From contig JAKZAP010000006.1 of assembly GCA_023053575.1 (NCBI GenBank), positions 18,237,280 through 18,301,279 of the forward strand: 64,000 bases of DNA. Direction: 5' to 3'. This stretch comes from Branchinecta lynchi (taxonomy: Eukaryota; Arthropoda; Branchiopoda; Anostraca; Branchinectidae). Positions 7,401-64,000 of this stretch are shown piece after piece. The position numbers were made by a program, and so were the translations under genes. Position 1 is the first letter of the stretch, and every line of letters starts with the position of its first letter. A model generated the notes under the pieces. That model had not been told where the DNA came from. It saw nothing but the letters and a program-made list of their open reading frames with translations, and did not search any database.

Positions 7401-7519
7401 TAACCTCCCACCTTGAATCGAAACTATAAGTTGTTAGCTAGTCTTTTTTTGACAAGGTGAAAACTTCAAAATAGGAAAATAAACCCGAATCCACAAAACC
7501 GTAAAGGTTCCTTTTTCAG

Positions 7520-10450
7520 ATGTCAAGATTCGCTATTCTACTGTTGCTTACTGCTATAGTCGCGGTAGTGCAGTGCGGCCGTCGCTATGATGGGATGAAC
7601 GAGGAAACGAAGTCCGATGACTGCTGTGGCGAGAAGGCTCCAGCCTACGAGAGTGGATATGCCATGCTTGGCCAGCAGCAGCATGGGAGGCGTTACCAAC
7701 GGTCATACCCCCTGTATCCAGCGATGAAAGTCAAGTCTCCTACCGCTTTGCCCGGTCAAATCTACGCAAAAGCCAAGGTACAGGTGCAAAACAAGCCAAG
7801 AAAGATAAAATACTACCAGCCGAAGGCCACAACCAAGTACTACCAGCCTGAGACCACCACCAAGTACTACGAGCCTGAGACCACTACCAAGTACTACGAG
7901 CCTGAGACAACCACCAAGTACTACGAGCCTGAGACGACCACCAAGTACTACGAGCCTGAGACGACCACCAAGTACTACGAGCCTGAGACGACCACCAAGT
8001 ACTACGAGCCTGAGACGACCACCAAGTACTACGAGCCTGAAACAACCACCAAGTACTACGAGCCTGAGACGACCACCAAGTACTACGAGCCTGAGACCAC
8101 CAAGTACTACGAGCCTGAGACGACCACCAAATACTACGAGCCTGAGACGACCACCAAGTACTACGAGCCTGAGACGACCACCAAGTACTACGAGCCTGAG
8201 ACCACTACCAAGTACTACGAGCCTGAGACAACCACCAAGTACTACGAGCCTGAGACGACCACCAAGTACTACGAGCCTGAGACGACCACCAAGTACTACG
8301 AGCCTGAGACGACCACCAAGTACTACGAGCCTGAGACGACCACCAAGTACTACGAGCCTGAAACAACCACCAAGTACTACGAGCCTGAGACGACCACCAA
8401 GTACTACGAGCCTGAGACCACCAAGTACTACGAGCCTGAGACGACCACCAAATACTACGAGCCTGAGACGACCACCAAGTACTACGAGCCTGAGACGACC
8501 ACCAAGTACTACGAGCCTGAGACTACCACCAAGTATTACGAGCCTGAGACGACCACCAAGTACTACGAGCCTGAGACGACCACCAAGTACTACGAGCCTG
8601 AGACGACCACCAAGTACTACGAGCCTGAGACGACCACCAAGTACTACGAGCCTGAGACGACCACCAAGTACTACGAGCCTGAGACGACCACCAAGTACTA
8701 CGAGCCTGAGACGACCACCAAGTACTACGAGCCTGAGACGACCACCAAGTACTACGAGCCTGAGACGACCACCAAGTACTACGAGCCTGAGACGACCACC
8801 AAGTACTACGAGCCTGAGACGACCACCAAGTACTACGAGCCTGAGACGACCACCAAGTACTACGAGCCTGAAACAACCACCAAGTACTACGAGCCTGAGA
8901 CGACCACCAAGTACTACGAGCCTGAGACCACCAAGTACTACGAGCCTGAGACGACCACCAAGTACTATGAGCCTGAGACGACCACCAAGTACTACGAGCC
9001 TGAGACGACCACCAAGTACTACGAGCCTGAGACGACCACCAAGTACTACGAGCCTGAGACGACCACCAAGTACTACGAGCCTGAAACAACCACCAAGTAC
9101 TACGAGCCTGAGACGACCACCAAGTACTACGAGCCTGAGACGATCACCAAGTACTACGAGCCTGAAACAACCACCAAGTACTACGAGCCTGAGACGACCA
9201 CCAAGTACTACGAGCCTGAGACCACCAAGTACTACGAGCCTGAGACGACCACCAAGTACTACGAGCCTGAGACGACCACCAAGTACTACGAGCCTGAGAC
9301 GACCACCAAGTACTACGAGCCTGAGACAACCACCAAGTACTACGAGCCTGAGACGACCACCAAGTACTACGAGCCTGAGACGACCACCAAGTACTACGAG
9401 CCTGAGACGACCACCAAGTACTACGAGCCCGAGACGACCACCAAGTACTACGAGCCCGAGACGACCACCAATTACTACGAGCCCCATACCACCACCAAGT
9501 ACTACAAGCCTGAGACCACCACCAAGTACTACGAGCCTGAGACCACCATCAAGTACTACGAGCCTGAGACCACCATCAAGTACTACGAGCCTGAGACCAC
9601 CACCAAATACTACGAGCCTGAGACCACCACCAAGTACTACGAGCCCGAGACCACCACCAAGTACTACGAGCCCGAGACCACCACCAAGTACTACGAGCCC
9701 GAGACCACCACCCAATACTACGAGCCAGAGACCACCACCCAATACTACGAGCCAGAGACCACCACGCAATACTACGAGCCAGAGACCACCACCCAATACT
9801 ACGAGCCAGAGACCACCACCATGTACTACGAGCCCGAGACTACCACCAAGTATTACGAGCCCGAGACCACCACCAAGTACTACGAGCCCGAGACCACCAC
9901 CAAGTACTACGAGCCGGAGACCACCACCCAATACTACGAGCCAGAGACCACCACCCAATACTACGAGCCAGAGACCACCACCCAATACTACGAGCCAGAG
10001 ACCACCACCCAATACTACGAGCCAGAGACCACCACCCAATACTACGAGCCAGAGACCACCACCCAATACTACGAGCCAGAGACCATCACCCAATACTACG
10101 AGCCGGAAACTTCCAAATACCACCCAGTCCTTCAGTATTACGCTCCAGGTGCTGAAAAGCTGGACCATCAATCAGCCGGAAGTTACAAGTATTCATACAA
10201 TTACAAGATACAATATCCGGACGGCAGCTCTCAAACCAAGGAAGAAACCAACGTGGGAGACAGCGTCAAGGGCTCTTACAACGTTCAGCTAAGTGGCGGC
10301 CAGATGCAGAAGCAACAATATGAGATCAAGAAGTCTGTAGCCCCGTGTGTGGACGGTTCAATCTGCGGTACCTATTTGTCAAGCGACTCAGCTTTGGACA
10401 GCACGCCATCGGCCACCGGAGACTACAACCGTGGAGAAGAAACGTACTGA
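7520..10450 (+). CDS. Secreted YYEPETTTK-repeat protein with cuticle-like C-terminus
   Basis: The protein has 976 residues. Residues 1-20 are a signal peptide (hydrophobic core ILLLLTAIVAVV, cut after the QCG region). A short linker follows with a CC pair and basic/tyrosine-rich sequence. From about residue 107 to 865 there are about 84 units of YYEPETTTK, a few shortened by one codon and, near the end, with Q replacing K. The tail (about 866-976) contains YKYSYNYKIQYPDG, then KEE, GDSVKGSYNV and GG, a pattern like the Rebers-Riddiford chitin-binding domain of arthropod cuticle proteins but diverged. A structural extracellular protein, perhaps tyrosine-crosslinked and O-glycosylated on threonines, is inferred. 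The ATG directly follows an intron acceptor. The coding exon lies wholly within an intron of the opposite-strand rootletin-like gene. Confidence 0.85.
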   Translation: MSRFAILLLLTAIVAVVQCGRRYDGMNEETKSDDCCGEKAPAYESGYAMLGQQQHGRRYQRSYPLYPAMKVKSPTALPGQIYAKAKVQVQNKPRKIKYYQPKATTKYYQPETTTKYYEPETTTKYYEPETTTKYYEPETTTKYYEPETTTKYYEPETTTKYYEPETTTKYYEPETTTKYYEPETTTKYYEPETTKYYEPETTTKYYEPETTTKYYEPETTTKYYEPETTTKYYEPETTTKYYEPETTTKYYEPETTTKYYEPETTTKYYEPETTTKYYEPETTTKYYEPETTTKYYEPETTKYYEPETTTKYYEPETTTKYYEPETTTKYYEPETTTKYYEPETTTKYYEPETTTKYYEPETTTKYYEPETTTKYYEPETTTKYYEPETTTKYYEPETTTKYYEPETTTKYYEPETTTKYYEPETTTKYYEPETTTKYYEPETTTKYYEPETTTKYYEPETTTKYYEPETTKYYEPETTTKYYEPETTTKYYEPETTTKYYEPETTTKYYEPETTTKYYEPETTTKYYEPETTTKYYEPETITKYYEPETTTKYYEPETTTKYYEPETTKYYEPETTTKYYEPETTTKYYEPETTTKYYEPETTTKYYEPETTTKYYEPETTTKYYEPETTTKYYEPETTTKYYEPETTTNYYEPHTTTKYYKPETTTKYYEPETTIKYYEPETTIKYYEPETTTKYYEPETTTKYYEPETTTKYYEPETTTKYYEPETTTQYYEPETTTQYYEPETTTQYYEPETTTQYYEPETTTMYYEPETTTKYYEPETTTKYYEPETTTKYYEPETTTQYYEPETTTQYYEPETTTQYYEPETTTQYYEPETTTQYYEPETTTQYYEPETITQYYEPETSKYHPVLQYYAPGAEKLDHQSAGSYKYSYNYKIQYPDGSSQTKEETNVGDSVKGSYNVQLSGGQMQKQQYEIKKSVAPCVDGSICGTYLSSDSALDSTPSATGDYNRGEETY
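7838..10110 (+). repeat. 27-bp coding minisatellite
   Basis: About 84 tandem units of TACTACGAGCCTGAGACGACCACCAAG-type sequence are present. The left and centre are highly homogenised (CCT/ACG codons). The last third uses CCC/CCA and ACC codons and carries CAG or CAA for the last residue. A 24-bp short unit recurs at about 8095, 8412, 8922 and 9217, each preceded two units earlier by a GAAACAACC variant, which shows blockwise duplication. Confidence 0.95.
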
Positions 10451-49940: not shown

Positions 49941-50566
49941 AAGCATTTTCAAGAGTTTTTTCGAGAAAATAATAATTTTTTTCTATCAACCTTTCGTAAA
50001 TACGTCATCAAATTTTTAACCGGGCATATTTTAGGTATTCTCTAACTTCGGAAAATGAATAATTGGGTGAAGAGATCCTGGTTTCTGGTTCTTAGCTTTA
50101 AAATTTGGAGCGACACGCAAACTAACTCCAAAATCTGAGAACTGGACTCCAGCTACTACCAAAACATGTAACTCGCTTCTTCTGTGCCCAGAAGTCAAAC
50201 TAGTTTGAGGCAACACAATAATGACAGATCTCAGTGGTATAACAAAAAGACGCCTGGCTTCATTTGCTCCTCGTGTAACTCCAAGAGTCTGACAATATGC
50301 GTTCACGATTTTTAGATAAACTAGAGTAGTATAAGATCGCCGCTCCCACTCCACCCTCCCCCCAATTTCAAAACCCCATTTTAACATCAATTTCTTAAAT
50401 TTTAACATCCTTTTTACCAAATTATCCCCCTTTTTAAGAACATTTTTATTTTCTTACTTCCAAAATAAAGGATACAAGAAATGAGAATATTACCGTTTCC
50501 TACATATAAAATACTACAATATACTACTACTTCTTTTTTTTACATTTTTCATTTTTTATTCAAATA
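49941..50566. other. Candidate left end of the Polinton element
   Basis: The sequence changes from host repeat to unique DNA here, about 0.6 kb outside the first element gene. A 129-codon minus-strand ORF (50031-50420) has no recognisable domain. The true terminal inverted repeat cannot be recognised because the right end lies beyond the window. Confidence 0.35.
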
Positions 50567-50875
50567 TTACTGAGTAAACAGTTCTAAATCCACATATGTT
50601 TCTTTGTTCTTGTTTTCGCGTACAATAGGCTGCAAAACCAGATTTTTCTTTAAAAGTAATTCGTTAGCAATGGCATTATATTTCTGAGTTATAAACAAAT
50701 CACAGGGTTTGTCATTATGATTAATAACTACAACCAACTTATCACCATATTTTGTCTTAGCAATTCTCATTTTAACAATAGTATATTTCAGTCCTAGAAC
50801 TAGTTCTTCTTTCCTGATTGTCTCATTGTATTTATTCATCCTGATTGTATTCAAGACTTCCTTTGTGGACTCCAT
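50567..50875 (-). CDS. Small OB-fold-like ssDNA-binding candidate of Polinton
   Basis: This protein of 102 residues has a central VLGLKYTIVKMRIAKTKYGD, then KLVVVINHND and a C-terminal strand TYVDLELF. The order of strands, with TKYG followed by hydrophobic strands and a lysine-rich loop, is like the small single-stranded-DNA-binding OB-fold proteins found beside polymerase B in many Polinton-like elements. That is recognition by pattern, not alignment. It is on the minus strand, divergent from the polymerase. The start is fixed by TAATAAATG; the block before it, CCCCTA, is shared only with the polymerase gene. Replication accessory protein is the inference. Confidence 0.5.
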   Translation of the reverse strand: MESTKEVLNTIRMNKYNETIRKEELVLGLKYTIVKMRIAKTKYGDKLVVVINHNDKPCDLFITQKYNAIANELLLKKNLVLQPIVRENKNKETYVDLELFTQ

Positions 50876-50885
50876 TTATTAGGGG
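50873..50885 (-). promoter_or_regulatory. CCCCTAATAAATG start motif, replication type
   Basis: On the minus strand the gene starts in CCCCTAATAAATG, preceded by AT-rich TTAATAAAATCAT. The polymerase start at 52394-52406 is CCCCTATTAAATG preceded by TTAATAAAAAATG. Confidence 0.6.
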
Positions 50886-51092
50886 ATGATTTTATTAAAT
50901 AAAAATCCAGGCTCACAAACTCACATACATATTTTTATTGATAATATCTAATGTAAAAAAAAAAAAAAATCCAAATCAATATTCATCACATCATCAAATT
51001 AAAATCTCCTCAACGTATCCAACAAAAAAACAGAAAATCTCATTGCGCATTAGTATTCACATCACAAAACATTTCGTTGCGGAGATTCTGCA

Positions 51093-51290
51093 GGCCCCGT
51101 TAGTGTAGTGGTCTAAGATGTTGCAACGTCTTAGATCAACCACTTCATCAATGATGTCGTGAGATCGAATCCCGCCATCAACTTGAGGTTAATGGTGAGG
51201 ATGGCGAACAAAAAACTCAGAGGGTTTCCTCCCCTCACGGGGCACCCCAGACACACCATAAAAAATAATAAGACGACAAATAAACATCTT
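51093..51290 (+). mobile_element. tRNA-derived SINE-like sequence
   Basis: TAGTGTAGTGG (51101-51111) fits a pol III A box and GATCGAATC (51163-51171) a B box, about 60 bases apart with a CTAAGA/TCTTAG hairpin between. Downstream GGTTTCCTCCCC resembles the core of several SINE families. Then comes ACGGGGC (51237-51243), complementary to GCCCCGT at 51094-51100, and an A-rich tail. A tRNA gene with an intron is less likely because the arms do not fold as a normal cloverleaf. It lies between two minus-strand element genes. Confidence 0.5.
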
Positions 51291-51329
51291 CAATCTTCAA
51301 AGTCTGGGGTGGGAGGTTTTGCAAAAATT

Positions 51330-51752
51330 TTATATTTTTGGTAAATTTTCTTGTATTTTGATAGTTTCGTTCTTGCAATATTTATAGCCATTCAGACGGA
51401 CTTGTTTCATGTATTTTTCGCGAGGAAAAAATCGAAAGGTTTTACGCATCTCTGTTTCTCTCTGAATTACCTCCTCAATTGTTAATTGTCCGCATTTTAG
51501 CATTGACAACAACTCAGTATAAAAATCATAAATAGTCCTAAATTCTGCTTTTCTATCAGCAATGCTTAATTGCTTTTCAATTATTTCGATGATAACAGCA
51601 CCCAAACTTAACGAAGCTAACGGTAGCACTAGAAACGCAGACATTCCTGCTGCCGAAAAGAGGAATTTGGATACAAGTAAGCTATTACTTATACGATTGT
51701 AGTACTTGTAACTGCGACGGTAAACATACATTTTCTCTTCTAATTCTTCCAT
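51330..51752 (-). CDS. Two-helix membrane protein of Polinton
   Basis: The protein has 140 residues. The N-terminal YRRSYKYYNRISNSLL is amphipathic. Two hydrophobic stretches follow (about residues 24-56, FLFSAAGMSAFLVLPLASLS and GAVIIEII), joined by a short turn. A cytoplasmic-like C-terminal half has EFRTIYDFYTELLSMLKCGQ. The architecture (helix-TM-turn-TM-helix pair) resembles the small membrane proteins with SLATT-like topology found in many Polintons; the function is unknown. The start is TACATAATAAATG, again with TAA directly before ATG. No break is seen. Confidence 0.55.
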   Translation of the reverse strand: MEELEEKMYVYRRSYKYYNRISNSLLVSKFLFSAAGMSAFLVLPLASLSLGAVIIEIIEKQLSIADRKAEFRTIYDFYTELLSMLKCGQLTIEEVIQRETEMRKTFRFFPREKYMKQVRLNGYKYCKNETIKIQENLPKI

Positions 51753-51845
51753 TTATTATGTAATAAAATTGTTTCAGAAATTATTTGATTGAATGAAAGG
51801 TTCGCGATTCGGAACACATCCGCCACCTGCTAAACTGTACGGAAT

Positions 51846-52320
51846 CTTTCTTGACTGATCGGAGAGGATCTAGATAGCGCTTGCTCCGTGAAACACAAAA
51901 CAATCTGCTATCTACGGAACTCTACTGAAACTTTCTTGACTGATCGGAGAGGATCTAGATAGCGCTTGCTCCGTGAAACACAAAACAATCTGCTATCTAC
52001 GGAACTCTACTGAAACTTTCTTGACTGATCGGAGAGAATCTAGATAGCGCTTGCTCCGTGAAACACAAAACAATCTGCTATCTACGGAACTCTACTGAAA
52101 CTTTCTTGACTGATCGGAGAGGATCTAGATAGCGCTTGCTCCGTGAAACACAAAACAATCTGCTATCTACGGAACTCTACTGAAACTTTCTTGACTGATC
52201 GGAGAGAATCTAGGTAGCGCTTGCTCCGTGAAACACAAAACACATCTGCTATCTACGGAACTCTACTGAAACTTTCTTGACTGATCGGAGAGAATCTAGA
52301 TAGCGCTTGCTCAGTGAAAC
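51846..52320. repeat. 85-bp iteron array upstream of polymerase B
   Basis: Units begin CTTTCTTGACTGATCGGAGA at 51846, 51931, 52016, 52101, 52186 and 52272, so the period is 85 (86 once), with the last unit incomplete. Each unit contains TAGATAGC and GCTATCTA about 28 bases apart, an 8-bp stem. The array ends about 70 bases before the polymerase start. A replication origin, telomere-like or promoter role is plausible but unproven. Confidence 0.85.
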
Positions 52321-52393
52321 GCATACTGAAACCAGTGCTTTTCTTTACGACTAAGAAAACGCAGTCGGGAGAAATTCATTAATAAAAAATGTT

Positions 52394-52406
52394 CCCCTAT
52401 TAAATG
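52394..52406 (+). promoter_or_regulatory. CCCCTATTAAATG start motif of polymerase B
   Basis: TAA is immediately followed by the ATG of the polymerase. The short overlapping frame ATGTTCCCCTATTAA lies across the motif. The CCCCTA block is absent from the structural-gene starts. Confidence 0.55.
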
Positions 52407-55400
52407 ATGAATACTGCAGAGGTTATTCAGCTTTGTAAAAAGGTTATATCAAACAACAAAGCGGTTATACAAAGATTATCGCTATACACATATAATGAAC
52501 TGCGGACTTATGCGAAAATTAATAAAATCAAAACAAATGGAGCTAAGAAACATGAAATAACAAATAATACAATAAACCATCTTAATAAGTACATTTTGAT
52601 AGCTGAAGATAAAATTAAAATTGAACGCAGAAACGAAAGAACTCATAATAAGAACAGACCATTCGACTACAAACCAGAACCGAGATTACGAACCATTCTG
52701 GAAGATGAGATAAAAGAAAATAATATCACCATTACAAAACTAAAACAAGAATACAATGATAACAAAGAAAAAGAGACAAGCGAATTAAAGAAATTTCAGA
52801 AAAACAAGAACCTATCAACTCGCGGAAACCGAGAAGAAGTACTAAAAAGAGTTGGAGAATACTATAATAATATTATTACCAAACATAAAGATTCCGTACA
52901 GAAAAATAGAGATATCATAAGAGATCAAACAGAAAGACGTGATAACAGTAGACAGAAACCAATTGGTTTATCAACTCTCTTCATAAATAAGGAAAAAATC
53001 CAAGTAGAAAAATTAATTCCTGATCATTTATTTAGAACTGAAGAAGAACAACAACCTACTATCTCTAGGGAAAATGAGAATTTGTACACTGTAAACGTAT
53101 CAGTTGAAAGCAATGGAAGAGATGAACATACTCTTATTGCTTTTACTTTCGCCGATTTACAGCGGCGGATGAATGAACTTTATCAATATAGAGTTCAGTT
53201 CGTAACTCGTGTTATTTTCCATCGACAGGAGAATGATGAAGAAGTAGTAGTGTATTACAACAGTACTTCTTGGATTATAAATAAAAATAGCATTCTTACT
53301 CATAATCATTTGGATGATAATAACAAGAGACTTAGTTCTTTAAGTAATACCCCTCGATCTGGGCTACAATTTAGTCGGTATGAAGGAATTGATTATAGGA
53401 TGACACGAATAGAATCTTACATGGGAGGAAAGTTTAAAATACTGCCAGATTTCGTAAAAAATAAAAGAGCTTGCTTGAATATTGAAAATAACGACCAGAA
53501 ATGTTTCCTTTGGTCTATCTTAGCAAATCTACATCCAGCTAAGGATCATCCGGAAAGAATTTCGAAATATAAACGATATGAGAACGAATTTGATTTCGAA
53601 GGGGTTACCAACTTCCCAATGGATACTAAAGATATACACAAATTTGAAAATAGATACAACATTAAGATTTGTTTATTTCAAATTGAAAAAGAGAAAATTA
53701 TCAGAAGTCATATACTAAAAAGTACAATCAATGGCAAAACAGCTAAACATGTTATTAATTTATTGTATTTCGATAATCATTATGTACTGGTAAAGGATCT
53801 GAGCAGATTAGTTGGTCCTCAAATATCTACAAGACAAAAAAAGACATACCTCTGCACTTTTTGCGGAATGCATTTTACAAAAGAAGAACAATATGAAAAA
53901 CATGAGAGTAAAAATAATTGCGAAGATCCTGATATTATAATGCCTCCTGAAGGTTCAAGTATACAATATAAAAATATTGCAAAACAAATGAAAGTACCTT
54001 ATTGCATAATAGCAGACTTTGAGTCTTATAACGAAGAATACAATCAGGTAAACGGAAAGAAAACAATAAAAGTGGCCAAACAGAAACCATTTGCTTACGG
54101 ATTTCAGGTATGCTGTTCCTTTGATACAAACCAGAACAAATACTATGACTATTTCGGTGAAGACGCTGCAGAAAATTTTGTTAAAACCGTTACAAAAGTA
54201 TCCACAGAAATTGCAAACAAATATGAAAGCAGATAAAGAAACCATACTTACACCAATGCAGAAATTACCGAAAAATGGAAAAATCTAATGAATAAGACTT
54301 GTCACATCTGTACAACTGAAATTACTGAAAATCCTCACTTTGATCACGACCACATGACAGGAGAAGATAGGGGATTTGCTCATGCTGAATGTAATATGAA
54401 ATACAGGATTCCTAGGCATATCCCGGTAGTAATGCATAATTTATCAAAATATGACTCTCATTTATTTGTTAGAGAATTGATACCTGATAACGGAATTTTT
54501 GAAAGTGCAGAAAATTTCATCTCATTCTCGAAATCAATAAGTATTACAAAAGCGGATACGAAAATAAAATATGAGATGCGGTTTATAGATTCAATTAGAT
54601 TTATGGCTTCATCTTTAGACAAACTATCAGCAAATTTAGCAAAATGTGATTGCAAAGTACCTTGTAATCATCTAAGACAGAATTTCAAATTCACATCTAA
54701 CAGTTTCAAAAATGACGATGAATTCAAAGAAATAATTAAAAAAGGGGTGTATCCCTATGAATTCGTAGATAATTTCGATAAAATGAAATGTACAAAGTTA
54801 CCACCAATAGAAAGCTTTTATTCTAGGTTGACGGGGAAAGGTATAGACAAAAGTGATTATAAAAGAGCGGTATCTATATGGAAGCAATTTAACTGTGAAA
54901 CATTACTTGATTATACTAAATTATACCTAAAAAGTGATGTTTTAATATTGTCGGATGTTGTAGAGAATTTCAGAAATGTGTGTATACATAATTATGATCT
55001 GGATCCACTTCATTACTTCTCAGCTCCAGGACTAACATGGGATGCTTTCCTAAAGCATTCGAAAGTAGACTTGCCGTTATTCTCAAAGGAAGACATGTAT
55101 ACCTTTATAGAAAAAGGAATAAGAGGTGGTGTATCCCAATGTATAAAAAGATACGCAAAAGCAAATAATAAATATACAAGTGATTATAATAAGAATAAGC
55201 CATCTAATTATTTAGTGTATTTAGATAAAAATAATTTATATGGGTGGGCAATGTCGCAGAATTTACCAGCGAATGATTTCCAATTCATTTCCATACCGGA
55301 TGATTTGAAAGAATGGAATGAATACGAATCAATCGAGTATTACAACCATCTGAAAAGTCATATCAATTCGGTGATTACGATTAAGTCGGTGAGACAAGAT

Positions 55401-56478
55401 GTGGGTGCTATATATGAGGTAGATTTAGAATATCCAAAAGAACTACACGAATTACACAAGGATTTACCATTAGCACCCGAACACTTTAACGGTAAGCTAT
55501 GTACCACAGTATTAGATAAAACCATCTATGTAGTTCACCACAGGAACCTAGAATTTTATTTACAAAAAGGCTTGATATTGAAAAGAGTACACAGAATACT
55601 AGGATTCACTGAAAGTGCTTACTTAAAAGGATATATAGACCACAACACAGCACTTAGAACTAAAGGTACAAATGATTTTGAGAAGGATTTCTTTAAGCTT
55701 ATAAATAATGCTTGCTTTGGAAAAACTATGGAAAACGTAAGGAAGCGAGCGGATATGGAAATAATAACGGATGATGCAACAAGAGAAAAAATAATAAAGA
55801 AACCCAACTTTAAATCTGAAATAATATTCAGTGAAAACTTTTCAGTAGCAAGAATGTCAAAGGAAAAGATAAAATTAGACAAACCAATGTATATCGGCTT
55901 TGCTGTATTGGAACTATCCAAGTTATTGATGTATGAATTCCATTATGATTATATGAAGCCTAAATATGGAGATAAAATTGATTTGTGTTATATGGACACT
56001 GATTCTTTCATATATGATATTAGAACTGAAGATTTTTATCAAGATATCAAACAGGATTTGAATGAGAGGTTCGATACATCTAATTATGCGAAAGATAATC
56101 CATATAGGTTTCCTAATGTAAATAAGAAAGTGATAGGAATGATGAAAGATGAATTAGGTGGACAGGTTATGACAGAGTTTGTTGGATTACGATCAAAAGT
56201 ATATGCTTATTTAAAGGACAACCAAGACCCTTCAAAGGCTAGCAAAAAACTGAAAGGAATAAAAACCAATATAGTTAAAGATAAAATTACGATTCAAAAC
56301 TATAAGGATGTACTGTTTGGTAAAACGGAAAACCTTTCTATAACCCAGTAACTTAAGATCATACAAGCACAATATGTTTCTAGAAGAACAGAATAAAAAA
56401 GCGTTAGATCCTAAGGATGATAAAAGGATAGTAACAAGCGATAAAATACACACTTTACCTTTAGGTTATAAACATTAA
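52404..56478 (+). CDS. Polinton DNA polymerase B, interrupted by one stop and one frameshift
   Basis: Replicative, protein-primed family B polymerase of Polinton/Maverick elements. Frame 52404-54236 (610 codons) has an N-terminal SAP-like region (YNELRTYAKINKIK), a domain with KCFLWSILANLHP and HYVLVKDLSR typical of Polinton polymerases, a C2HC finger (CTFCG...H...C) and ExoI (IADFESY). A single in-frame TAA at 54234-54236 separates it from the next segment (54288-56351), which stays in the same frame. That segment holds an endonuclease VII-like CxxC...DHDH...HxxC block, ExoII (HNLSKYDSH), ExoIII (YLKSDVLILSD), motif A (LDKNNLYGW, near codon 310), motif B (NNACFGKTMEN, near 473) and motif C (YMDTDS, near 567). 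A one-base shift at 56343-56349 puts the last about 40 codons (SYKHNMFLEEQNKKA...) in another frame, ending at 56478. About 1,350 codons in all, normal for the family. Whether the stop is real or a sequence error cannot be seen. Confidence 0.9.
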
Positions 56479-57265
56479 ATTCAAGTACCTACTTAAAAAA
56501 TTCAAGTACCTACTTAAAAAATTCAAGTACCTACTTAAAAAAATCAAGTACCTACTTAAAAACTTCAAGTACCTACTTAAAAAATTCAAGTACCTACTTA
56601 AAAAATTCAAGTACCTACTTAAAAACTTCAAGTACCTACTTAAAAAATTCAAGTACCTACTTAAAAAATTCAAGTACCTACTTAAAAAATTCAAGAACCT
56701 ACTTAAAAAAATCAAGTACCTACTTCAAAACTTCAAGTACCTACTTAAAAACTTCAAGTACCTACTTAAAAAATTCAAGCACCTACTTAAAAAATTCAAG
56801 TAACTACTTAAAAAATTCAAGAACCTACTTAAAAAAATCAAGTACCTACTTCAAAACTTCAAGTACCTACTTAAAAAATTCAAGTACCTACTTAAAAAAA
56901 TCAAGTCCCTACTTAAAAAAATCAAGTACCTACTTAAAAACTTCCAAGTACCTACTTAAAAAATTCAAGTACCTACTTAAAAAATTCAAGTACCTACTTA
57001 AAAAATTCAAGAACCTACTTAAAAAAATCAAGTACCTACTTCAAAACTTCAAGTACCTACTTCAAAACTTCAAGTACCTACTTAAAAAATTCAAGTACCT
57101 ACTTAAAAAAATCAAGTACCTACTTAAAAACTTCAAGTACCTACTTAAAAAATTCTAGTACCTACTTAAAAAATTCAAGTACCTACTTAAAAAATTCAAG
57201 AACCTACTTAAAAAAATCAAGTACCTACTTCAAAACTTCAAGTATATACTTAAAATACTCAAGTA
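56479..57265. repeat. 21-bp array of AAGTACCTACTT dyads
   Basis: About 37 tandem units of TTCAAGTACCTACTTAAAAA(A) start at the polymerase stop codon and end about 30 bases before the ATPase. The core AAGTA-CC-TACTT is a dyad, so each unit can bind a dimeric protein or form a small hairpin. Variants (CAAGAACC, CTTCAAAACTT) form a higher-order pattern that repeats every about 130 bases. One unit near 57240 is the perfect palindrome AAGTATATACTT. Confidence 0.9.
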
Positions 57266-57296
57266 AATCTTATAATGAAAAATTCTTCCTAAGTAA

Positions 57297-57974
57297 ATGA
57301 ATGAAAAGGCTCCAATCAAAGTCTATGACTTTAGTGAAAAGAACACTTATCAGAATAAGCACGACCTTGCACCTCAGTGGCCATTTAGACTCTTAATTTG
57401 TGGTAGTTCTGGAACAGGGAAAACTAACCTTCTTTTGAATTTAATTTATGAATATCTTTGTTTCAACCGAATATACTTGTATGCAAAAGATCTTGAAGAA
57501 GATAAATACCAAGACCTTATAACCAATTTGACCACTTTGGAGTCACAATGCAAATCGAAAGTCTTAACAATAAGTAACAATCTTGATGATATTGTCGATG
57601 TTGACGACTTAGACCCTGAGTCCCAAAACTTGATTATCTTTGACGATTTTGTCACTGAAAAAGACCAGAAGAAAATAGAAGATTTATTCATAAGAGGAAG
57701 AAAGAAAAATGCTTCAATTATTTACTTGTCACAGAGCTATCATAAAACGCCAAAGGTGGTAAGGCTCCAGTGCAATTATTTTGCATTCTTTCAGTATTCT
57801 AATCCAAAAGAAGTAAAATTAATAAGACAAAGCCATGTATCCAGTATAGACAATGAAAAATTTCTCAAACAATTCGAGGCTGCAACCAAGGGCTACGGTT
57901 TTTTCTTCATAGATTTAAAAACAAAAGATAAAACCCTGAAGTACAGGAAAAACTTTGAAAAATTTACCGGATAA
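57297..57974 (+). CDS. FtsK/HerA-type DNA packaging ATPase
   Basis: This protein of 225 residues is the virion genome-packaging ATPase (A32-like branch) of Polintons. Walker A GSSGTGKT lies at 36-43, Walker B LIIFDD at 112-117 and a sensor-type IIYLSQSYHKTP further on. The short N-terminus and total length fit the family. The frame is intact. Start AGTAAATG with TAA before ATG; the polymerase-side dyad array lies directly upstream. It opens the structural gene cluster. Confidence 0.9.
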   Translation: MNEKAPIKVYDFSEKNTYQNKHDLAPQWPFRLLICGSSGTGKTNLLLNLIYEYLCFNRIYLYAKDLEEDKYQDLITNLTTLESQCKSKVLTISNNLDDIVDVDDLDPESQNLIIFDDFVTEKDQKKIEDLFIRGRKKNASIIYLSQSYHKTPKVVRLQCNYFAFFQYSNPKEVKLIRQSHVSSIDNEKFLKQFEAATKGYGFFFIDLKTKDKTLKYRKNFEKFTG

Positions 57975-57990
57975 TTTATTTCTATAATAA

Positions 57991-58716
57991 ATGAATAAAT
58001 TTGGTAGTGTTGGAAAAAAGGTTAGTAACGAATCGAAAGTTACTGACGAAAATGGTAACATTAACCTACATGATAGACGAATTATAAATTTAGGTGATGC
58101 CAAGGCAGACAAGGATGCTATTAGCTTAAGATCTATGACTGTGATTATGAATCAATTTAAAGAACAAATGACTGCAGGACAAGTGCAAGCCAACCAATAC
58201 TTTAGCGAAGATATCAACAGATTAACTGCGACAGATGATTCTCCTGATAATTCGTTGGTAAGGAACAAAGATAAAGGGTTATTTGTAAAACAAACAATTG
58301 GAGTTAGTGAAAAAGAACTTGATGCTGGGAATAAAGTAATCACAAATGTTCAAGATCCTAGAAACAAACATGATGCTGTTAATTTAGGAACGTTAACTAC
58401 GTATCTTTTAGATTTTGACAAAAAGCTCGAAAACCAACAAGCCCTTAGCAAAAGTATTGAAACGAAGATTGGCGACCTTAGCAAAAGTATTGACAAAAAG
58501 CTTCTTTACCTTAGGAAAAGTATTGACAAAAAGCTCGAAAACCAACAAAAAATGAGCAGTAATATTAGTTCAAATGATTTGGACCAAGATCTGCATATCA
58601 ATGGTATTGAAAGAGCAGTCGTAAACATTTTAAAAAGGCTTTTAGAGCAAAAACCTGTTGATCAAGATTTTGTTAAGAAAACAGAAGACTTCATGAAAAC
58701 TAAACTAAAGAAATAA
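57991..58716 (+). CDS. Fibre-like trimeric coiled-coil protein
   Basis: The protein has 241 residues. Residues 29-49 (RRIINLGDAKADKDAISL) and about 112-132 (ITNVQDPRNKHDAVNLGTL) match the repeating 'I-x-N-(L/V)-x-D-P/A-x-x-x-x-D-A-(V/I)-x-L' module of phage and adenovirus-like fibre shafts. Residues about 133-190 form a coiled coil with duplicated SKSIDKKL/RKSIDKKLENQQ segments. The C-terminus is a short lysine-rich tail rather than a large knob. A receptor-binding or vertex fibre role is inferred from these modules and from the position between the ATPase and the protein-X-like gene. Start: TATAATAAATG. Intact. Confidence 0.6.
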   Translation: MNKFGSVGKKVSNESKVTDENGNINLHDRRIINLGDAKADKDAISLRSMTVIMNQFKEQMTAGQVQANQYFSEDINRLTATDDSPDNSLVRNKDKGLFVKQTIGVSEKELDAGNKVITNVQDPRNKHDAVNLGTLTTYLLDFDKKLENQQALSKSIETKIGDLSKSIDKKLLYLRKSIDKKLENQQKMSSNISSNDLDQDLHINGIERAVVNILKRLLEQKPVDQDFVKKTEDFMKTKLKK

Positions 58717-58734
58717 AATTTATATGATAAATTA

Positions 58735-58749
58735 ATTTTCTAATAAATG
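58735..58749 (+). promoter_or_regulatory. TTTTCTAATAAATG start motif, structural type
   Basis: TTTCTAATAAATG is shared almost exactly by the starts at 58747, 59683 and 61604 and closely by 57991. The starts at 60769, 62351 and 62738 have TATAAATG. In all of them TAA abuts ATG. Confidence 0.6.
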
Positions 58750-59295
58750 GTTGAAACATTTGAGTATACAGTTTATTTATCAAAGCTTCAGAAAGGAAAG
58801 CTGAAGAAATGTTTTGGTGCTAAACAAAAATGTAAGATACGTGTTAGTCACAGTAGACAAAATGAACGGGAACCAATCAAGTTACTTTTAAGTAAACGAC
58901 AAATTGATAAAATTGAAACATGTAAAATGAATAATAAGGGTTGTGACATAGATGTATCATACAAGCAGATGAGAGAAGCGATTCAAAAAGGTGGATTACT
59001 TCCATTCTTAATACCGTTAGCTGTAGCCCTTGGTAAGGCAGCTTTAACAAGCGGAGCTGCTGCTTTGGGTACATTCGCTGGTAAGAAATTGGTGGATAAC
59101 ATAACCAACACAGGTGGGGCGCTTACACTTCCTGGAACACAAAAAGTTGTGGGACGTGGAAGACCTAGGAAGGAGGATACCACAGGTGGCGCGCTTACAC
59201 TTCCTGGAACGCAAAAAGTTGTCGGTCATGGGGTACGTGGTAGACCTAAGAAGCCAAAAAACGGGGACATCAAAAAAGAAGCAAAAGTAAAGTAG
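58747..59295 (+). CDS. Protein-X-like core/minor capsid protein with AT-hooks
   Basis: The protein has 182 residues. A cysteine-containing N-terminal part (1-80) is followed by the glycine/alanine-rich hydrophobic segment GGLLPFLIPLAVALGKAALT and AAALGTFAGKKLVD (about 82-115), the signature of the pX/pVI-like proteins of Polintons. The C-terminus holds a duplicated module, GGALTLPGTQKVVG, each followed by an AT-hook-like core (GRGRPRK, then VRGRPKKPK). DNA binding or genome condensation in the virion is inferred. Start TTTTCTAATAAATG. The protease frame begins, without its own ATG, inside its last 45 bases. Confidence 0.6.
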   Translation: MVETFEYTVYLSKLQKGKLKKCFGAKQKCKIRVSHSRQNEREPIKLLLSKRQIDKIETCKMNNKGCDIDVSYKQMREAIQKGGLLPFLIPLAVALGKAALTSGAAALGTFAGKKLVDNITNTGGALTLPGTQKVVGRGRPRKEDTTGGALTLPGTQKVVGHGVRGRPKKPKNGDIKKEAKVK

Positions 59296-59651
59296 GACCT
59301 CTAACTAATTTTGATATTATGGATGCATTAGGGAGTATACCACAGTTTCGAGGTGTTTTCTCTTTAGATACGCTACCCAAACATATAAACGATTCGGAAT
59401 ATGGTGTAATCAACTATGACAAACGTGGAATGCCTGGAACACATTGGGTTGCCTATTGTAATCTACCTGAATCCCCCTATGTCGAATTTTTCGATTCTGT
59501 CGGTATTCCTCTAGGAAAAGAAATAGTTAAATATCTAAAAACTTCAAAGAAAAAGATAGTTTATGAAAATCTTGCTGTTCAAAATATAGATGAATTAAAC
59601 TGTGGTTTTCACTGCATTTCCTACATCCAGCGGAAAATGAAGAGTTGGTAG
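59250..59651 (+). CDS. Adenain-type (Ulp1-like) maturation cysteine protease, start broken
   Basis: Cysteine protease that processes virion proteins in Polintons and adenoviruses. GTHWVAY carries the catalytic histidine, EFFDSVG the acidic residue and NCGFHC the cysteine. The first ATG of the frame is 59319, but the conserved N-terminal segment PLTNFDI lies in frame just before it (from about 59298) with no ATG. The frame is open back to 59250, overlapping the end of the preceding gene in another frame, with an A-run at 59272-59277 in the overlap. Either the true start was lost by a one-base change or it is made by frameshifting from the upstream gene. Unlike the other genes, 59319 has no TAAATG motif. 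Confidence 0.75.
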   Translation, partial: EAKKRGHQKRSKSKVGPLTNFDIMDALGSIPQFRGVFSLDTLPKHINDSEYGVINYDKRGMPGTHWVAYCNLPESPYVEFFDSVGIPLGKEIVKYLKTSKKKIVYENLAVQNIDELNCGFHCISYIQRKMKSW

Positions 59652-59682
59652 CTTTTCGTTTAAGAAAATTGTTTTCTAATAA

Positions 59683-59850
59683 ATGGAGATTTATTGTATG
59701 AAATGTAAAAAGAGCACTGACACTGAATCAATGTTTAAGGCAGTGTCACAAAAAAATAATGTTCCAATGCTGAAAGGTAATTGCGTTATCTGTGGTTCAA
59801 TGAAAAATCGCTTTTTAAAAAAAACCTCAACGCAGAAACAGATATTTTAA
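59683..59850 (+). CDS. Small zinc-ribbon protein
   Basis: A protein of 55 residues starting MEIYCMKCKK, with a second pair in GNCVICGS, so two CxxC knuckles about 30 residues apart form a zinc ribbon. It resembles the DUF5679-type zinc ribbons common in Polintons and large DNA viruses. Start TTTTCTAATAAATG. From 59781 it overlaps the integrase frame, and A8 at 59817-59824 lies in the overlap. The part after the A-run (about residue 48 on) looks out of frame. Confidence 0.65.
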   Translation: MEIYCMKCKKSTDTESMFKAVSQKNNVPMLKGNCVICGSMKNRFLKKTSTQKQIF

Positions 59851-60752
59851 AGACGTATTATTCTAATTATTCAGGTGTGAATGATATTTACAGAAAATTA
59901 AAAGAAAATGGTGTTAAGGTTTCCAAGGATAAAATAAAAAATGTGTTGCAAAATGAGAATGTGTATACGTTACACAAACCTTCCTATCATAACTTTGAAA
60001 GGAGGCGAGTGTATGTTCACTATGTTGATGAGCAATGGCAAGCTGATTTAGTTGACATGCAGAAATATAAAAAAGAAAATAATAAAACAAATTACATTTT
60101 AACTGTTATTGATTGCTTTAGTAAATATGCTTGGTGTATCCCTCTGAAAGACAAAACGGGTGCTGAAATAATAAAAGCATTCAGTGTTATATTTAAAGAA
60201 AGAATTCCTAAGAAACTACAAACTGATAAAGGTAAAGAATTTGTGACGAGAAATGTTAAAACTTTTTTGAAAAATAACGGCATACACTGGTTTGCATCTG
60301 AAAGCGAATTGAAAGCGCAAATTGCAGAACGATTCAACAGAACGCTAAAAGAAAAGTTATGGAAATATTTCACTCACAATAACACTACTAATTGGATTGA
60401 TATTTTACCTTTATTTGTGAGTAATTATAATAACTCGTACCACCGTTCAATACAAATGAAACCAGTTGATGCTAGTAAAAAGGTTAATCAGAAAAAGGTT
60501 TTTAGTGCTCTGTTTCCTCCAGTAGACGACTACAAAATCACAGGAAACGTCAAAGTAGGGGATTTAGTCAGAATTAAAAAAGAAAAAAGTATTTTCGATA
60601 AAGGATATTTACCTAATTATACGGATGAGGTATTTCAGATAGCAACCATCAGACCTACCATTCCCATTACTTATGAAATATCTGACAAAAGTGGGGAATT
60701 AATTCAAGGAGGGTTTTATGAAAAAGAACTTTCAAAATTTATTATGAAATAA
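59781..60752 (+). CDS. Retroviral-type integrase of Polinton, no in-frame ATG
   Basis: DDE integrase that inserts the linear element. The open frame from 59781 has 323 codons. The core has WQADLVDM (first Asp, residue 89), LQTDKGKEF (second Asp, 149) and QIAERFNRTLKEKLW (Glu, 183), the D,D-33-35-E pattern. An N-terminal region with YTLHKP and a C-terminal GNVKVGDLVRIKKE SH3/chromo-like segment match Polinton integrases. The frame is closed by TAA at 59778 and contains no ATG before residue 93, inside the core. It therefore cannot be translated from its own start. The zinc-ribbon frame upstream overlaps it at an A8 run. Otherwise intact. Confidence 0.9.
   Translation: MRYLWFNEKSLFKKNLNAETDILKTYYSNYSGVNDIYRKLKENGVKVSKDKIKNVLQNENVYTLHKPSYHNFERRRVYVHYVDEQWQADLVDMQKYKKENNKTNYILTVIDCFSKYAWCIPLKDKTGAEIIKAFSVIFKERIPKKLQTDKGKEFVTRNVKTFLKNNGIHWFASESELKAQIAERFNRTLKEKLWKYFTHNNTTNWIDILPLFVSNYNNSYHRSIQMKPVDASKKVNQKKVFSALFPPVDDYKITGNVKVGDLVRIKKEKSIFDKGYLPNYTDEVFQIATIRPTIPITYEISDKSGELIQGGFYEKELSKFIMK
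59815..59825 (+). other. Possible slippery site, zinc ribbon to integrase
   Basis: In the zinc-ribbon frame the run reads TTA AAA AAA ACC, so A AAA AAA is a possible -1 slippery heptamer. A -1 step there moves translation into the integrase frame. Equally, loss or gain of one A would explain the break. Confidence 0.4.
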
Positions 60753-60768
60753 AATTAGTTGTATATAA

Positions 60769-61600
60769 ATGGATTCAAGACGCTTGAGTGATATTTTATC
60801 GGATATAGTGAAGAACAGAGAAATTCAGAGAAGAAAGGTTCAACAAAATGAGATGGAGAAGGCAGGATTTCGGGAATATGCTTCAGAATTAAACGCTCCA
60901 GTTATTATAGCACAAAAAGAAAACACTAAAGATACCATCAAAAAACTACAAGAGAACGCTGAAACGATAATTAATAAACTACAGGAAGGTGATAATAATT
61001 CAAGAAGACGGTTTGTCAGATTAGGTGATACATTTAAAACAGCTTTACAGACCACTACTTCAGAGGAATCGAGTCGAGCTCCCACTCATGCTATAGAACC
61101 CAATCTAGAAAAACCATATGACGTAAATCTAAACTTATATATTGATGTGGAATTATTAAATCAAATTAATTTAAAATATAAAGATGACTGGAATGATACC
61201 GATAATTATTTTAAAATGCCTCATTATTACCTTAAGCATCCTAACGAAATAGATGGGGCTCTGAATTATTTAACATCTATAAGTCAAAGTTATGGTGGTC
61301 TGAAAAGTAAAAGTTATAGTTCTAGTAAGTATGATAAAATTATTTTATTTATACAAGACTATAAGGATAGATTAAAAAAAAATTCAATCTAGTATACCCT
61401 TTATCAAACAACAAGGAACTGGAATATTTATGAATTGTGATGAAATGATTTCAAAACTATACACTTTGATAGGTAGCAGAGTAAACGGAAATACATCTGA
61501 TGAGGTGAGAAATGAAGCTATTGATATTTTGGATTCGTTAATGCGAAATAAATTTCTTACGAAGAGATATTACAATTCAATATATAAAAAATATTTCTAA
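60769..61600 (+). CDS. Unknown virion-type protein, frameshifted at an A9 run
   Basis: Frame 60769-61392 encodes 207 residues: a charged helical N-terminus (LSDILSDIVKNREIQRRK), a KKLQENAETIINKLQEGD coiled coil, a serine/threonine linker and a C-terminal HYYLKHPNEIDGALNYLTSI block. At A9 (61374-61382) the frame ends shortly after, while another frame is open exactly from the run (61376) to 61600. That frame continues with a 56-residue segment after an ATG at 61430 (SRVNGNTSDEVRNEAIDILD, then KKYF). In related elements the two parts look like one protein, but I recall this only as a family pattern. It lies between integrase and penton. Start GTATATAAATG. Function unknown. Confidence 0.5.
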
Positions 61601-61603
61601 TAA

Positions 61604-62318
61604 ATGGTGTTGTTAAACATTGAAGGTAATGAAAGTATCATTGATATAACATTTAGTCAACCAATCGAATTGAATCGTAATTGGGATTATGAAATAGGTT
61701 TGAATCAGTGTACTTTGTGGTATTCATGGCATAATATAAGTGATAAATTTGGAAATAATACATTTCAATACAGGAAAGATGAAGAGGGGGGATGGATGAA
61801 TGTTACTATTCCTAATGGGATTTATAACGATGATTGTTTGCATTATTTTTTGTGTCAGTATTTTGATACCCCAAAAGATAAATGTCCTATTGTAATTTCA
61901 TCCAATCCAGCATCTATGAGATTTGTCATACTATTACAAGAAAAATATGTGTTTAGATTTAATAGTGACTTGTGTCAGATTTTAGGATTTGAGAAGGATA
62001 GTGAGATATCTAAGAAAATCAATGAAGGTACAAAGCTTCCGAATATAAAAAAGAAGCGTTGATAAAATTCAAATTCACTGCTCTCTCGTAAACAGTTCTA
62101 TCGTAAACAAAAGTACATCAGATGTCATTTGGACATTTGTTCCGAATACAGAACCGGGTTGTCAAATTGTTGAGAATCCTAGACAATTAATCTACCTTCC
62201 TATTAATACAAAAGACTTTATTTACTCCTTGAGAATGACAATTACTGATCAGTTGGGAAGACCTATCGATTTGAATGGTGATAACGTTGGATACGTGCTG
62301 CATTTAAGAAAAGCTTAA
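61604..62318 (+). CDS. Penton-like minor capsid protein, frameshifted
   Basis: Single-jelly-roll vertex protein of Polintons. Frame 61604-62062 (152 residues) has IDITFSQPIELNRNWDYEIG, IPNGIY and DLCQILGF. A second frame open from 62049 to 62318 has WTFVPNTEPGCQIVENP, LIYLPIN and ITDQLGRPIDL. These blocks, in this order, are typical of one protein of about 235-240 residues. The break falls between 62049 and 62059, at an A6 run (62047-62052). Start TTTCTAATAAATG. No second start motif precedes the second frame. Confidence 0.75.
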
Positions 62319-62350
62319 AGGATTAGTGAAATAAAATTATTTACCTATAA

Positions 62351-62707
62351 ATGTTGATTAATAATAAGCGATTACTTTATAAAAGGCAGTATGGAAGTGG
62401 AATCGGTAGTGTATTCAAAAACATTGTTAATTCCCAGTTATTTCAAACGTCAGCAAAACAAATAAAAGATGGGGCTATGTCAATGTATAATAATATTATT
62501 AAACCGAGATTTGAGTTGTTGAAAAACAGAGCAATAGAATATGGGAAAGATCTGATCAATGTAAACAAGAAGGAACTCATTGATGTAATTGGAAACAAAA
62601 AATCGATGAAGGATCTTATCGGTACAAATAAAAGGATTTTAAATCAAAGAAGTCAGGACTTGATCAAAACGTTAATGACTGGAAGTGGATTAAAGATTCT
62701 GAAATAA
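62351..62707 (+). CDS. Small basic minor capsid candidate (pVI-like)
   Basis: The protein has 118 residues. The N-terminal KRQYGSGIGSVFKNIV has glycine-serine repeats followed by an amphipathic helix, and the rest is basic and helical (SMYNNIIKPRFELLKNRAIE). Near the C-terminus MTGSG fits the adenain consensus (M/I/L)-x-G-x|G. Size, position between penton and major capsid, and the cleavage-like site suggest a membrane-active or internal minor capsid protein processed by the element protease. Start ACCTATAAATG. Intact. Confidence 0.5.
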   Translation: MLINNKRLLYKRQYGSGIGSVFKNIVNSQLFQTSAKQIKDGAMSMYNNIIKPRFELLKNRAIEYGKDLINVNKKELIDVIGNKKSMKDLIGTNKRILNQRSQDLIKTLMTGSGLKILK

Positions 62708-62737
62708 GTTTTATTTAATAATTTCTTTCTTATATAA

Positions 62738-63993
62738 ATGGCAGTAAATAAAGTTATCAGTCCGCAATGGAACATTTTTGATGAACCGCTTGTGGATGAT
62801 ACAGTGGTTAAATCTGAATTTAAAGAAATTCGAGAAACAGATGTTAATGTATCTAATAAATCAGAGTTTGAATTCATAACAAAGAAATTAGATTCTTGGT
62901 TTTATCCAAGTGAAAGTTATCTTGATGTCAGTGTAAGAATAGTAAACGAAGATGGGACTCCTATAGCTGCAACCGATGTTGCTAATTTAACGAATAATGG
63001 ATTTAATTTATTCAGTACCGCTGAGTATGTAATAAACGATGAATCGGTTGAAAAAATTAATAATGTTGGTATTACAACTACTGTTACAAAGTTGATTGAA
63101 TACTCTGATGATTATTCTAGAAGTGCTGCAAGAAATCATTTCTGGTATAAAGATTATAATCAGGGGAAAGAAATCAATCCTGTAATTGCTTCGTTTACTG
63201 CAGGGGCTGGAACAGTCAGGTTGATCAATAATGATAATTATAATAAAGGATTTGAAAAAAGATATAACAGAACAAAGTAAATATGTATTTACCATTATCA
63301 GAACTGTTTGGATTCTTAAAAGGAAACAAACGATTCTTCAGAGGTGCATCGCATAAAATATTTCTAAGGAGAAATGATGATAACAACATGATTATAAGAA
63401 ATGGAAATACTAATTTCAAAGTAGTCATCGAGTATTTATCATGGAAGATCCCTATTGTAGCTCCTAGTATTGAAATGATGAGTAACTTAGAAAAGGGATT
63501 GGCAAAGGACAGAAAGCATAATCTGATGTGGGAAGCATGTAATATTTATAAAAGCGATGTTAGTCAAAATAAGGAACACACTTGGAAAGTTATTTCTGAG
63601 AGAAACAATCCAACAAAAGTAGTTGTGATGCTACAGAAAAATGAAAAGCATAACAATCAATTAATGAATATTATGGTGTTTGATCATATGAATTTAACAG
63701 ACATAGAACTTAGAATTAATGGGGATAAATATCCTGAAGAACCACTTAAATGTGATTTTAGCGATGATAAATGTAAATACTCAAATCTTTACAATAGGTT
63801 CATACATTTGGGTTATAAACAATTAGCATTTGATACTGGTAGTGTTGTTAGTATAGAAGAATTTAAAGAAGTATATCCACTATTCTGTTTCGATGTTTCC
63901 AAACACGAGTCAAATATTTATAATGGAACAACTGCTGATATTGAAATAAGTTTAACGTTGAAAGATAATCAACCCGTACCATATAATGTTTAC
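62738..63993 (+). CDS. Major capsid protein (double jelly roll), frameshifted and cut by gap
   Basis: Frame 62738-63280 (180 residues) begins AVNKVISPQWNIFDEP and contains LDSWFYPSESYLDVSVRIVN and FNLFSTAEYVINDESVE, the first jelly roll. A second frame (open from 63268, ATG at 63283) carries MYLPLSELFGF, LSWKIPIVAPSIE, MVFDHMNL, LGYKQLAFDTGS and YPLFCFDVSKHE, the second jelly roll. The break lies between 63268 and 63277. The protein runs into the Ns at 63994-64000 and lacks its end. The motif order is that of Polinton capsid proteins. Start TCTTATATAAATG; no such motif at the second frame. Confidence 0.85.
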
Positions 63994-64000
63994 NNNNNNN
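63994..64000. other. Assembly gap (Ns)
   Basis: Seven Ns end the window inside the capsid gene, so the right end of the element is not visible. Confidence 1.

Follow-up and report, generated by a model that had tools for sequence, protein, structure and literature searches.

Poxviruses offer one of the closest described parallels to the gene-start signal reported here: in the accessible passages of PMC11423596 and PMC5294985, intermediate promoters join a core to a TAAA initiator, and late promoters carry TAAATG. The promoter of the DNA polymerase gene of invertebrate iridescent virus 6 (IIV-6) contains an essential AAAAT at -19 to -15 of the start site (PMC5294985, in excerpt). In the yeast cytoplasmic linear plasmids, a box at a median of 11 nucleotides (nt) from the start is combined with a TAAAN initiator in 12 genes, and the messages bear non-templated 5' poly(A) (PMC6211774, available part). 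The motif TCTA of mavirus and the endogenous mavirus-like elements (EMALEs) matches the late promoter of Cafeteria roenbergensis virus (CroV; PMC8547959, available part). Here we describe a Polinton at the right end of a window of 64,000 nt (the whole stretch of DNA that was analysed; Branchinecta lynchi, contig JAKZAP010000006.1), the genes of which share the bipartite start signal AAWWT-N10-TAAATG. In an earlier sequence-only reading of this DNA, TAAATG starts were not known to have been described for Polintons, and no earlier report of a promoter motif for animal Polintons was found among the titles and abstract openings listed for narrow terms in a mostly open literature, or in the accessible parts of PMC8097293, PMC10328495, PMC8547959, and PMC3671162.

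A bipartite signal at the gene starts

TAA stood directly 5' of ATG at all 11 named starts (52404, 57297, 57991, 58747, 59683, 60769, 61604, 62351, and 62738 on the plus strand, and 50875 and 51752 on the minus strand). The context was TAATAAATG at six of them (57991, 58747, 59683, 61604, 50875 minus, and 51752 minus), TATAAATG at three (60769, 62351, and 62738), TATTAAATG at 52404, and TAAGTAAATG at 57297, where the G at -4 is specific to the window copy and differs in 60 of 60 aligned loci. The sequence-only reading had listed TAA before these 11 ATGs, mostly in two forms, and this held for all 11 (6 + 3 in the two forms). Elsewhere on the two strands of 50401-63994, TAA preceded only 9 of 437 ATGs (Fisher p = 5e-17). 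Motif-blind rules were added because the starts had been picked with the motif in view, and an open reading frame (ORF) was then taken to start at the first ATG after a stop. Among ORFs of at least 40 codons in the element, TAA preceded all 11 named starts and none of the 28 others; at 20 codons or more, it preceded 2 of 82 non-named starts, and in window positions 1-50400, it was found at 1 of 54 ORFs of at least 60 codons. ORFs of at least 100 codons in 50325-63994 had TAA|ATG in 10 of 13 cases and the full box-N10-TAA form in 9 of 13; with slightly different borders, TAA was found at 10 of 14, the exceptions being 50408 on the minus strand (which leaves the element), 54288, 59319, and 60057.

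An outside control gave low frequencies. In 120 IMG/VR stretches (of at least 120), mostly AT-rich and picked for carrying a 21-nt form of the motif, TAA|ATG was present at 44 of 885 ORFs of at least 100 codons and the full box-N10-TAA form at 3 of 885; the count was 34 of 642 in the 92 stretches with a GC content of 0.36 or less, and 36 of 586 in a subset of 80 stretches. A search of IMG/VR for related DNA had given five loci, namely L009, L010 and L011 (both from one contig), and L012 and L013, which matched weakly. On these contigs with distant or weak ATPase matches, TAA preceded 1 of 12 (L009), 0 of 13 (L010), 0 of 16 (L012), and 1 of 31 (L013) ORFs of at least 90 codons, and the GC contents of L009 (0.27) and L010 (0.30) make them as AT-rich as the element or more so.

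The box upstream of TAAATG was equally regular. All but one of the 11 starts had AAWWT at -18 to -14, with AA at -18/-17 in 11, T at -14 in 10, and a pyrimidine at -10 in 11; T was also common at -28 (9/11), -27 (10/11), and -24 (9/11). The box occurred as AAAAT, AATTT, AAATT, and once as AAAAA. Searching both strands of the element with AAWWT-N10-TAAATG returned 10 matches, all at named starts, and none on either strand of 1-50400; when a spacer of 8-12 was allowed, all 11 starts were matched and nothing else in the element or in 1-50400. The upstream context was scored on -30 to -7 only, a stretch without TAAATG, and in leave-one-out scoring every start ranked in the top 1% among 26,189 control positions. 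The information content of this stretch was 16.0 bits; the highest value reached was 9.3 when sets were drawn at random from the other ATGs (5,000 draws) and 10.4 for 5,000 sets of positions with at least 80% A+T. These statistics describe 11 starts of one element (one lineage, one genome), which lie on two strands and have differing neighbours. An origin by chance or by composition could appeal to the A+T content of about 68% in the element, but the contrast between the named starts and the other ATGs, the AT-rich sets that never reached the observed information, and the IMG/VR frequencies leave this explanation a negligible probability. A bias of the ORF finder and a post hoc choice of starts were likewise ruled out by the other ATGs, the other ORFs, the AT-rich positions, and the viral stretches. 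The sequence-only reading had called for a check of related Polintons against shuffled AT-rich controls; in the element itself, composition does not explain the start motif, and the observation is stronger than first noted.

The position of the box also bears on what kind of signal this is. If the sequence were only a context for translation initiation, an A-rich leader would be combined with an in-frame TAA that stops upstream read-through; TAA is indeed in frame and immediately 5' of ATG, and a Kozak-like G follows ATG in 7 of the 11 starts. However, T and never a purine was found at -3 in 11 of 11, contrary to Kozak, and the fixed box at -18 and the frequent T at -28, -27, and -24 require a reader bound to distance, so that this explanation is improbable. 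Because a second box lies at a fixed upstream distance, a promoter at the DNA level is likelier than a translation context. Alternatively, TAATAAATG could belong to the gene before it, as an AATAAA poly(A) signal that overlaps the following start. AATAAATG was found in 6 of the 11 starts, and stop-to-start gaps can be as short as 16-30 nt (at 57991, 58747, 60769, and 62738), but 5 of the 11 starts lacked AATAAATG, the start at 50875 (minus strand) is separated by 454 nt from the stop at 51330 that precedes it, and that at 57297 follows 0.9 kb that is mostly a repeat array. Furthermore, 51752 (minus strand) and 52404 face away from each other on the two sides of a repeat array, and neither has an element gene upstream of it on its own strand; therefore, their signals are not poly(A) signals, and this reading is very improbable. 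A gap of 3 nt separates the 61604-type start from the stop before it in four of four other copies, and its box there falls within the coding end of the preceding ORF. Such short gaps and a box within coding sequence leave little room for a separate promoter plus a leader. An intron or spliced-leader acceptor at ATG was rejected, as no YAG was nearer than -13 in 11 of 11, and so was the baculovirus-type DTAAG, which occurred within 60 nt of only 3 of the 11 starts, at scattered positions. The one host gene start that was examined follows an intron acceptor and was uninformative on start context.

Gene content and other copies of the element

The element is a Polinton by its gene content and its termini. 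Pfam scans matched a Pox_A32 packaging ATPase (E 1.2e-13), an integrase with an rve domain (E 1.1e-11), and, on a natural ORF of the copy L066, the double jelly-roll major capsid protein (PF21738, E 5.9e-27). SAP and endonuclease VII domains were the sole Pfam matches of the PolB-like gene, with no PolB match up to E 0.1; the segments that we take to be polymerase motifs were spotted by eye and have no Pfam support. The protease was matched by Peptidase_C5 (adenain) in L066, weakly and below the cut-off (E 0.0089), and the window ORF matched no family. Terminal inverted repeats of about 630 bp complete the picture: window positions 50325-50955 were found inverted in four of four right ends (L065-L068, with L067 cut by the end of the locus), and blastn placed the left-end stretch in direct orientation in 15 of 20 left-end loci (L069-L088). 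The features of the window copy are as follows.

50325..50955, no strand: left terminal inverted repeat, about 630 bp (blastn); the same stretch lies inverted behind the capsid gene in other copies
50567..50875, minus: ORF of 102 amino acids (aa) inside the inverted repeat; start context AAAAT-N10-TAAATG; nothing above the Pfam cut-off
51330..51752, minus: ORF of 140 aa with AATTT-N10-TAAATG at its start; the signal persists in a copy with 77-80% DNA identity
51833..52320: tandem array, 85 bp x 5.7, before the PolB-like gene
52386..52406, plus: PolB-like start signal, with an A-run as its box and, after 10 nt of spacer, TAAATG at 52401-52406
52404..56351, plus: PolB-like gene in two ORFs (52404-54236 and 54288-56351), the second of which opens at an internal, motif-less ATG
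56477..57265, no strand: tandem array, 21 bp x 37.5, before the ATPase gene
57279..57974, plus: start signal and Pox_A32 packaging ATPase; AAAAT box at 57279, ATG at 57297
57973..58716, plus: start signal (AATTT box, ATG at 57991) and fibre-like ORF with a weak match to a phage tail fibre
58729..59295, plus: start signal and lysine-rich ORF; AAATT box, ATG at 58747
59319..59651, plus: protease ORF that lacks a start signal; its frame differs from that of the 58747 ORF, which it closely follows
59665..60752, plus: start signal (ATG at 59683) and integrase in two ORFs, the second of which (60057-60752) contains rve and opens at an internal, motif-less ATG
60751..61392, plus: start signal (AAAAT box, ATG at 60769) and an ORF that spans 273-278 aa in other copies
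61586..62062, plus: start signal (AAAAA box, ATG at 61604) and an ORF in the penton position that spans 238-240 aa in other copies
62333..62707, plus: start signal and ORF of 118 aa; AAAAT box, ATG at 62351
62720..63993, plus: start signal and major capsid gene; AATTT box, ATG at 62738; broken at 63280, Ns from 63995

The two tandem arrays flank the PolB-like gene within the element. As the 102-aa gene lies within the inverted repeat together with its own start signal, a two-ended copy would carry it twice; two homologues of its protein were found, one being the window's own and the other an ENA protein at 81% identity. Outside the element, a host ORF at 7505-10450 contained 82 YYEPET repeats, looked cuticle-like by eye, and was the source of the peak in GC and skew at 8-10 kb. 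From this ORF and from fragments of mitochondrial COI translated with the invertebrate code, the host was judged to be arthropod-like.

The window copy is damaged. The capsid ORF spans 445-452 aa in four of four other copies, which also have a penton-position ORF of 238-240 aa and a 60769-type ORF of 273-278 aa. Because these are single ORFs there, 61430 and 63283 are internal ATGs, as expected of the frame-break pseudo-starts without the motif for which the sequence-only reading took them. It had grouped 59319 with them as lacking the motif, and the protease ORF indeed lacked a start signal in five of five copies (the window and L065-L068) and was always out of frame with the 58747 ORF that it closely follows; the copies may share a frame change, or the ORFs may be expressed jointly through frameshifting. 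The integrase was split in the window and in L065-L068, with the start signal only before the first part and the rve ORF beginning at an internal ATG. No ORF of at least 60 aa in the 6 kb past the Ns of the window (L064) looked element-like by eye.

In the host genome (576 Mb), the best 150 of 1046 ATPase candidates were scored; these best-ranked copies, which are not a random sample, were 97-100% identical and had no internal stop. Such near-identical and intact ATPase copies point to a strong recent expansion in the host genome. Two distant ATPases were also used as queries (best 150 candidates each), and the measured loci were 87-100% identical to the window ATPase; thus, no deeper family was reached.

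TAAATG was kept in 155 of 159 copy-starts after loci from the same place were merged (191 of 196 unmerged); hits not spanning -49 to +24 were dropped, L001, L019 (the window's own place), L064, and the IMG/VR loci were excluded, and 6 of the 11 starts rest on only 4 to 8 copies. Across 73 distinct haplotypes, the sites that differed from the window were 1 of 219 in TAA, 3 of 219 in ATG, 29 of 1606 in +3 to +24, and 49 of 1460 in -48 to -29. By these counts, to which no significance test was applied, TAA appears more conserved than its surroundings. The more telling case on conservation is L088, in which the 51752-type gene has a DNA identity of 77-80%: the box changed from AATTT to AAATT and 4 of the 10 spacer bases changed, while the distance and TAAATG were kept. 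The diverged subfamily also contained an extra ORF near the 51752-type gene (258 aa in L088, two pieces in L073), which lacks a start signal and may be cargo or a neighbouring gene.

A candidate core promoter and its reader

A bipartite structure, a fixed spacing, a restriction to gene starts, and persistence in a diverged copy are thus features of the signal. They are probably best explained, taken as a whole, by a one-class bipartite core promoter with its initiator in TAAATG. Each gene except the protease ORF would possess its own core promoter of about 30 bp that overlaps the start codon; the A/T box AAWWT at -18 to -14 would fix the position, and a pyrimidine-rich spacer of 10 nt would follow. 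Judged from the arrangement of the sequence, a promoter function is likely, and a start of transcription within the A-run of TAAATG, which would give a message almost without a templated leader, is slightly favoured. The sequence-only reading had supposed that the element carries a promoter code of its own; what stands of this is a repeated start signal that is not due to composition and resembles the poxvirus TAAATG, whereas the promoter role is the part that we infer.

As for the reader, an outside RNA polymerase of the cytoplasmic type found in nucleocytoplasmic large DNA viruses (NCLDVs), which a co-infecting virus would supply in the way known for mavirus, is suggested tentatively and at less than even chance. 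The PolB-like, integrase, ATPase, and capsid genes share one signal class, which fits an element that joins one stage of the programme of another and has no cascade of its own. On the other hand, the host RNA polymerase II could read the signal as an unusual initiator-type nuclear promoter with very short leaders and no helper virus. Very many copies of the element reside in host chromosomes, no RNA polymerase domain was found in the scanned element ORFs, and the host genome yielded no helper virus (the family searches were blank in 14 controls too); AATAAA within -60 to +3 of 9 of the 11 starts also means that the host could polyadenylate the upstream genes. However, TCAKT was found in only 2 of the 11 starts and TATAAA in 4, 3 of which overlap the start codon. 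A TATA role of the -18 box would, with the spacing of RNA polymerase II, place the start inside the ORF, which also counts against the host enzyme, and we consider its involvement somewhat unlikely.

Several results weigh against the proposed promoter and its reading by a viral polymerase. The suggestion of a dedicated or cytoplasmic polymerase in the sequence-only reading gained no support: Pfam scans of the element ORFs found no RNA polymerase domain, and the NCLDV capsid (PF04451) and VLTF3 (PF04947) had no match in the host genome, although they had none in 14 of 14 control genomes either, so that absence is not demonstrated. The strict poxvirus Group I and Group IIB patterns matched 0 of the 11 starts. 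The intermediate consensus, which in the accessible text of PMC11423596 has N14 between TAAAAA and TAAA, also matched none, either as AT-N8-TAAAAA-N14-TAAA or by its TAAAAA-N14-TAAA part, and late poxvirus cores lie, in the passages available, 5-7 bp from TAAAT, compared with 10 here. The loose form T-N9-TAAATG was found at 5 of the 11 starts, but the remainder of the window contained it 12 times. That poxvirus early-termination words are avoided was considered and rejected, as the 3 seen on the coding strand did not differ significantly from the 7.7, 7.2, and 3.2 expected under Markov orders 1-3; the opposite strand had 49, also below the expectation modelled from composition. Among near-identical copies, the box differed at 19 of 365 sites (including gaps in the A-run of 52404, in at least 14 of its 19 loci), and its conservation per base was no higher than that of its surroundings. 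Close Polinton DNA from another species was not found in IMG/VR or in GTDB genomes, and a motif scan of IMG/VR gave one hit apiece in the 80 listed of at least 120 stretches and, among these, no stretch with two hits.

If a helper virus does supply the polymerase, Polintons of animals, or at least of this arthropod-like lineage, might be virophage-like: they would be silent in the nucleus, and a poxvirus- or iridovirus-like NCLDV infecting the same cell would transcribe them as a single regulon with its cytoplasmic RNA polymerase. We regard this extension as speculative and, on balance, unlikely. AAWWT-N10-TAAATG would then have been copied from the helper promoter or be convergent with it, a conjecture that is equally doubtful. 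How Polintons are expressed is an open question in the literature searched, and the start signal makes it directly testable, since a one-class signal of 30 bp predicts start sites to the base and could separate transcription by host RNA polymerase II from that by a helper virus. The signal may also be used for finding true gene starts and candidate helpers. Under the helper reading, animal genomes would hold large stocks of elements that answer to large DNA viruses. In the available text of PMC8097293, this has been proposed, not shown, for vertebrate elements, and Polinton virions had not been observed so far.

Comparison with known systems

The gene set of mavirus and the EMALEs is comparable to that of the Polinton. 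These virophages and the Polinton both have a single promoter or promoter-like motif across the genes of a small integrating DNA virus; they differ in that the virophage motif is TCTA and that a helper is known for virophages, whereas none was found for the Polinton. Type 4 virophages, as far as the accessible part of PMC8547959 describes them, similarly have one signal class, which in their case matches a giant-virus helper. The vertebrate Mavericks share the Polinton gene set and the terminal inverted repeats, their genes being intronless and those described here being open ORFs (PMC8097293, available part); the same passages name no promoter motif.

The yeast linear plasmids, in the portion of their description available, resemble the Polinton in the combination of an upstream box and a TAAAN-type initiator. 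In contrast, they encode their own RNA polymerase and their box is ATNTGA. According to the excerpt available, IIV-6 resembles the Polinton in having AAAAT and then a stretch rich in T immediately ahead of the start. However, the Polinton box is counted from ATG and not from a mapped start, and it varies (AAAAT, AATTT, AAATT, and AAAAA).

The spacer of vaccinia intermediate promoters measures 10-11 bp. With poxvirus intermediate and late promoters, as portrayed in the accessible sources, the Polinton shares a TAAA(T) initiator over the start codon and an A/T-rich core close upstream, and the TAAAT initiator at the gene start, a trait of these two poxvirus classes, was present in 11 of 11 starts. 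The Polinton differs in having one class for all genes, a spacer of 10 nt, and no viral RNA polymerase found in the element. Because the exact published patterns were unmatched, its signal would work like the poxvirus class without being a member of it.

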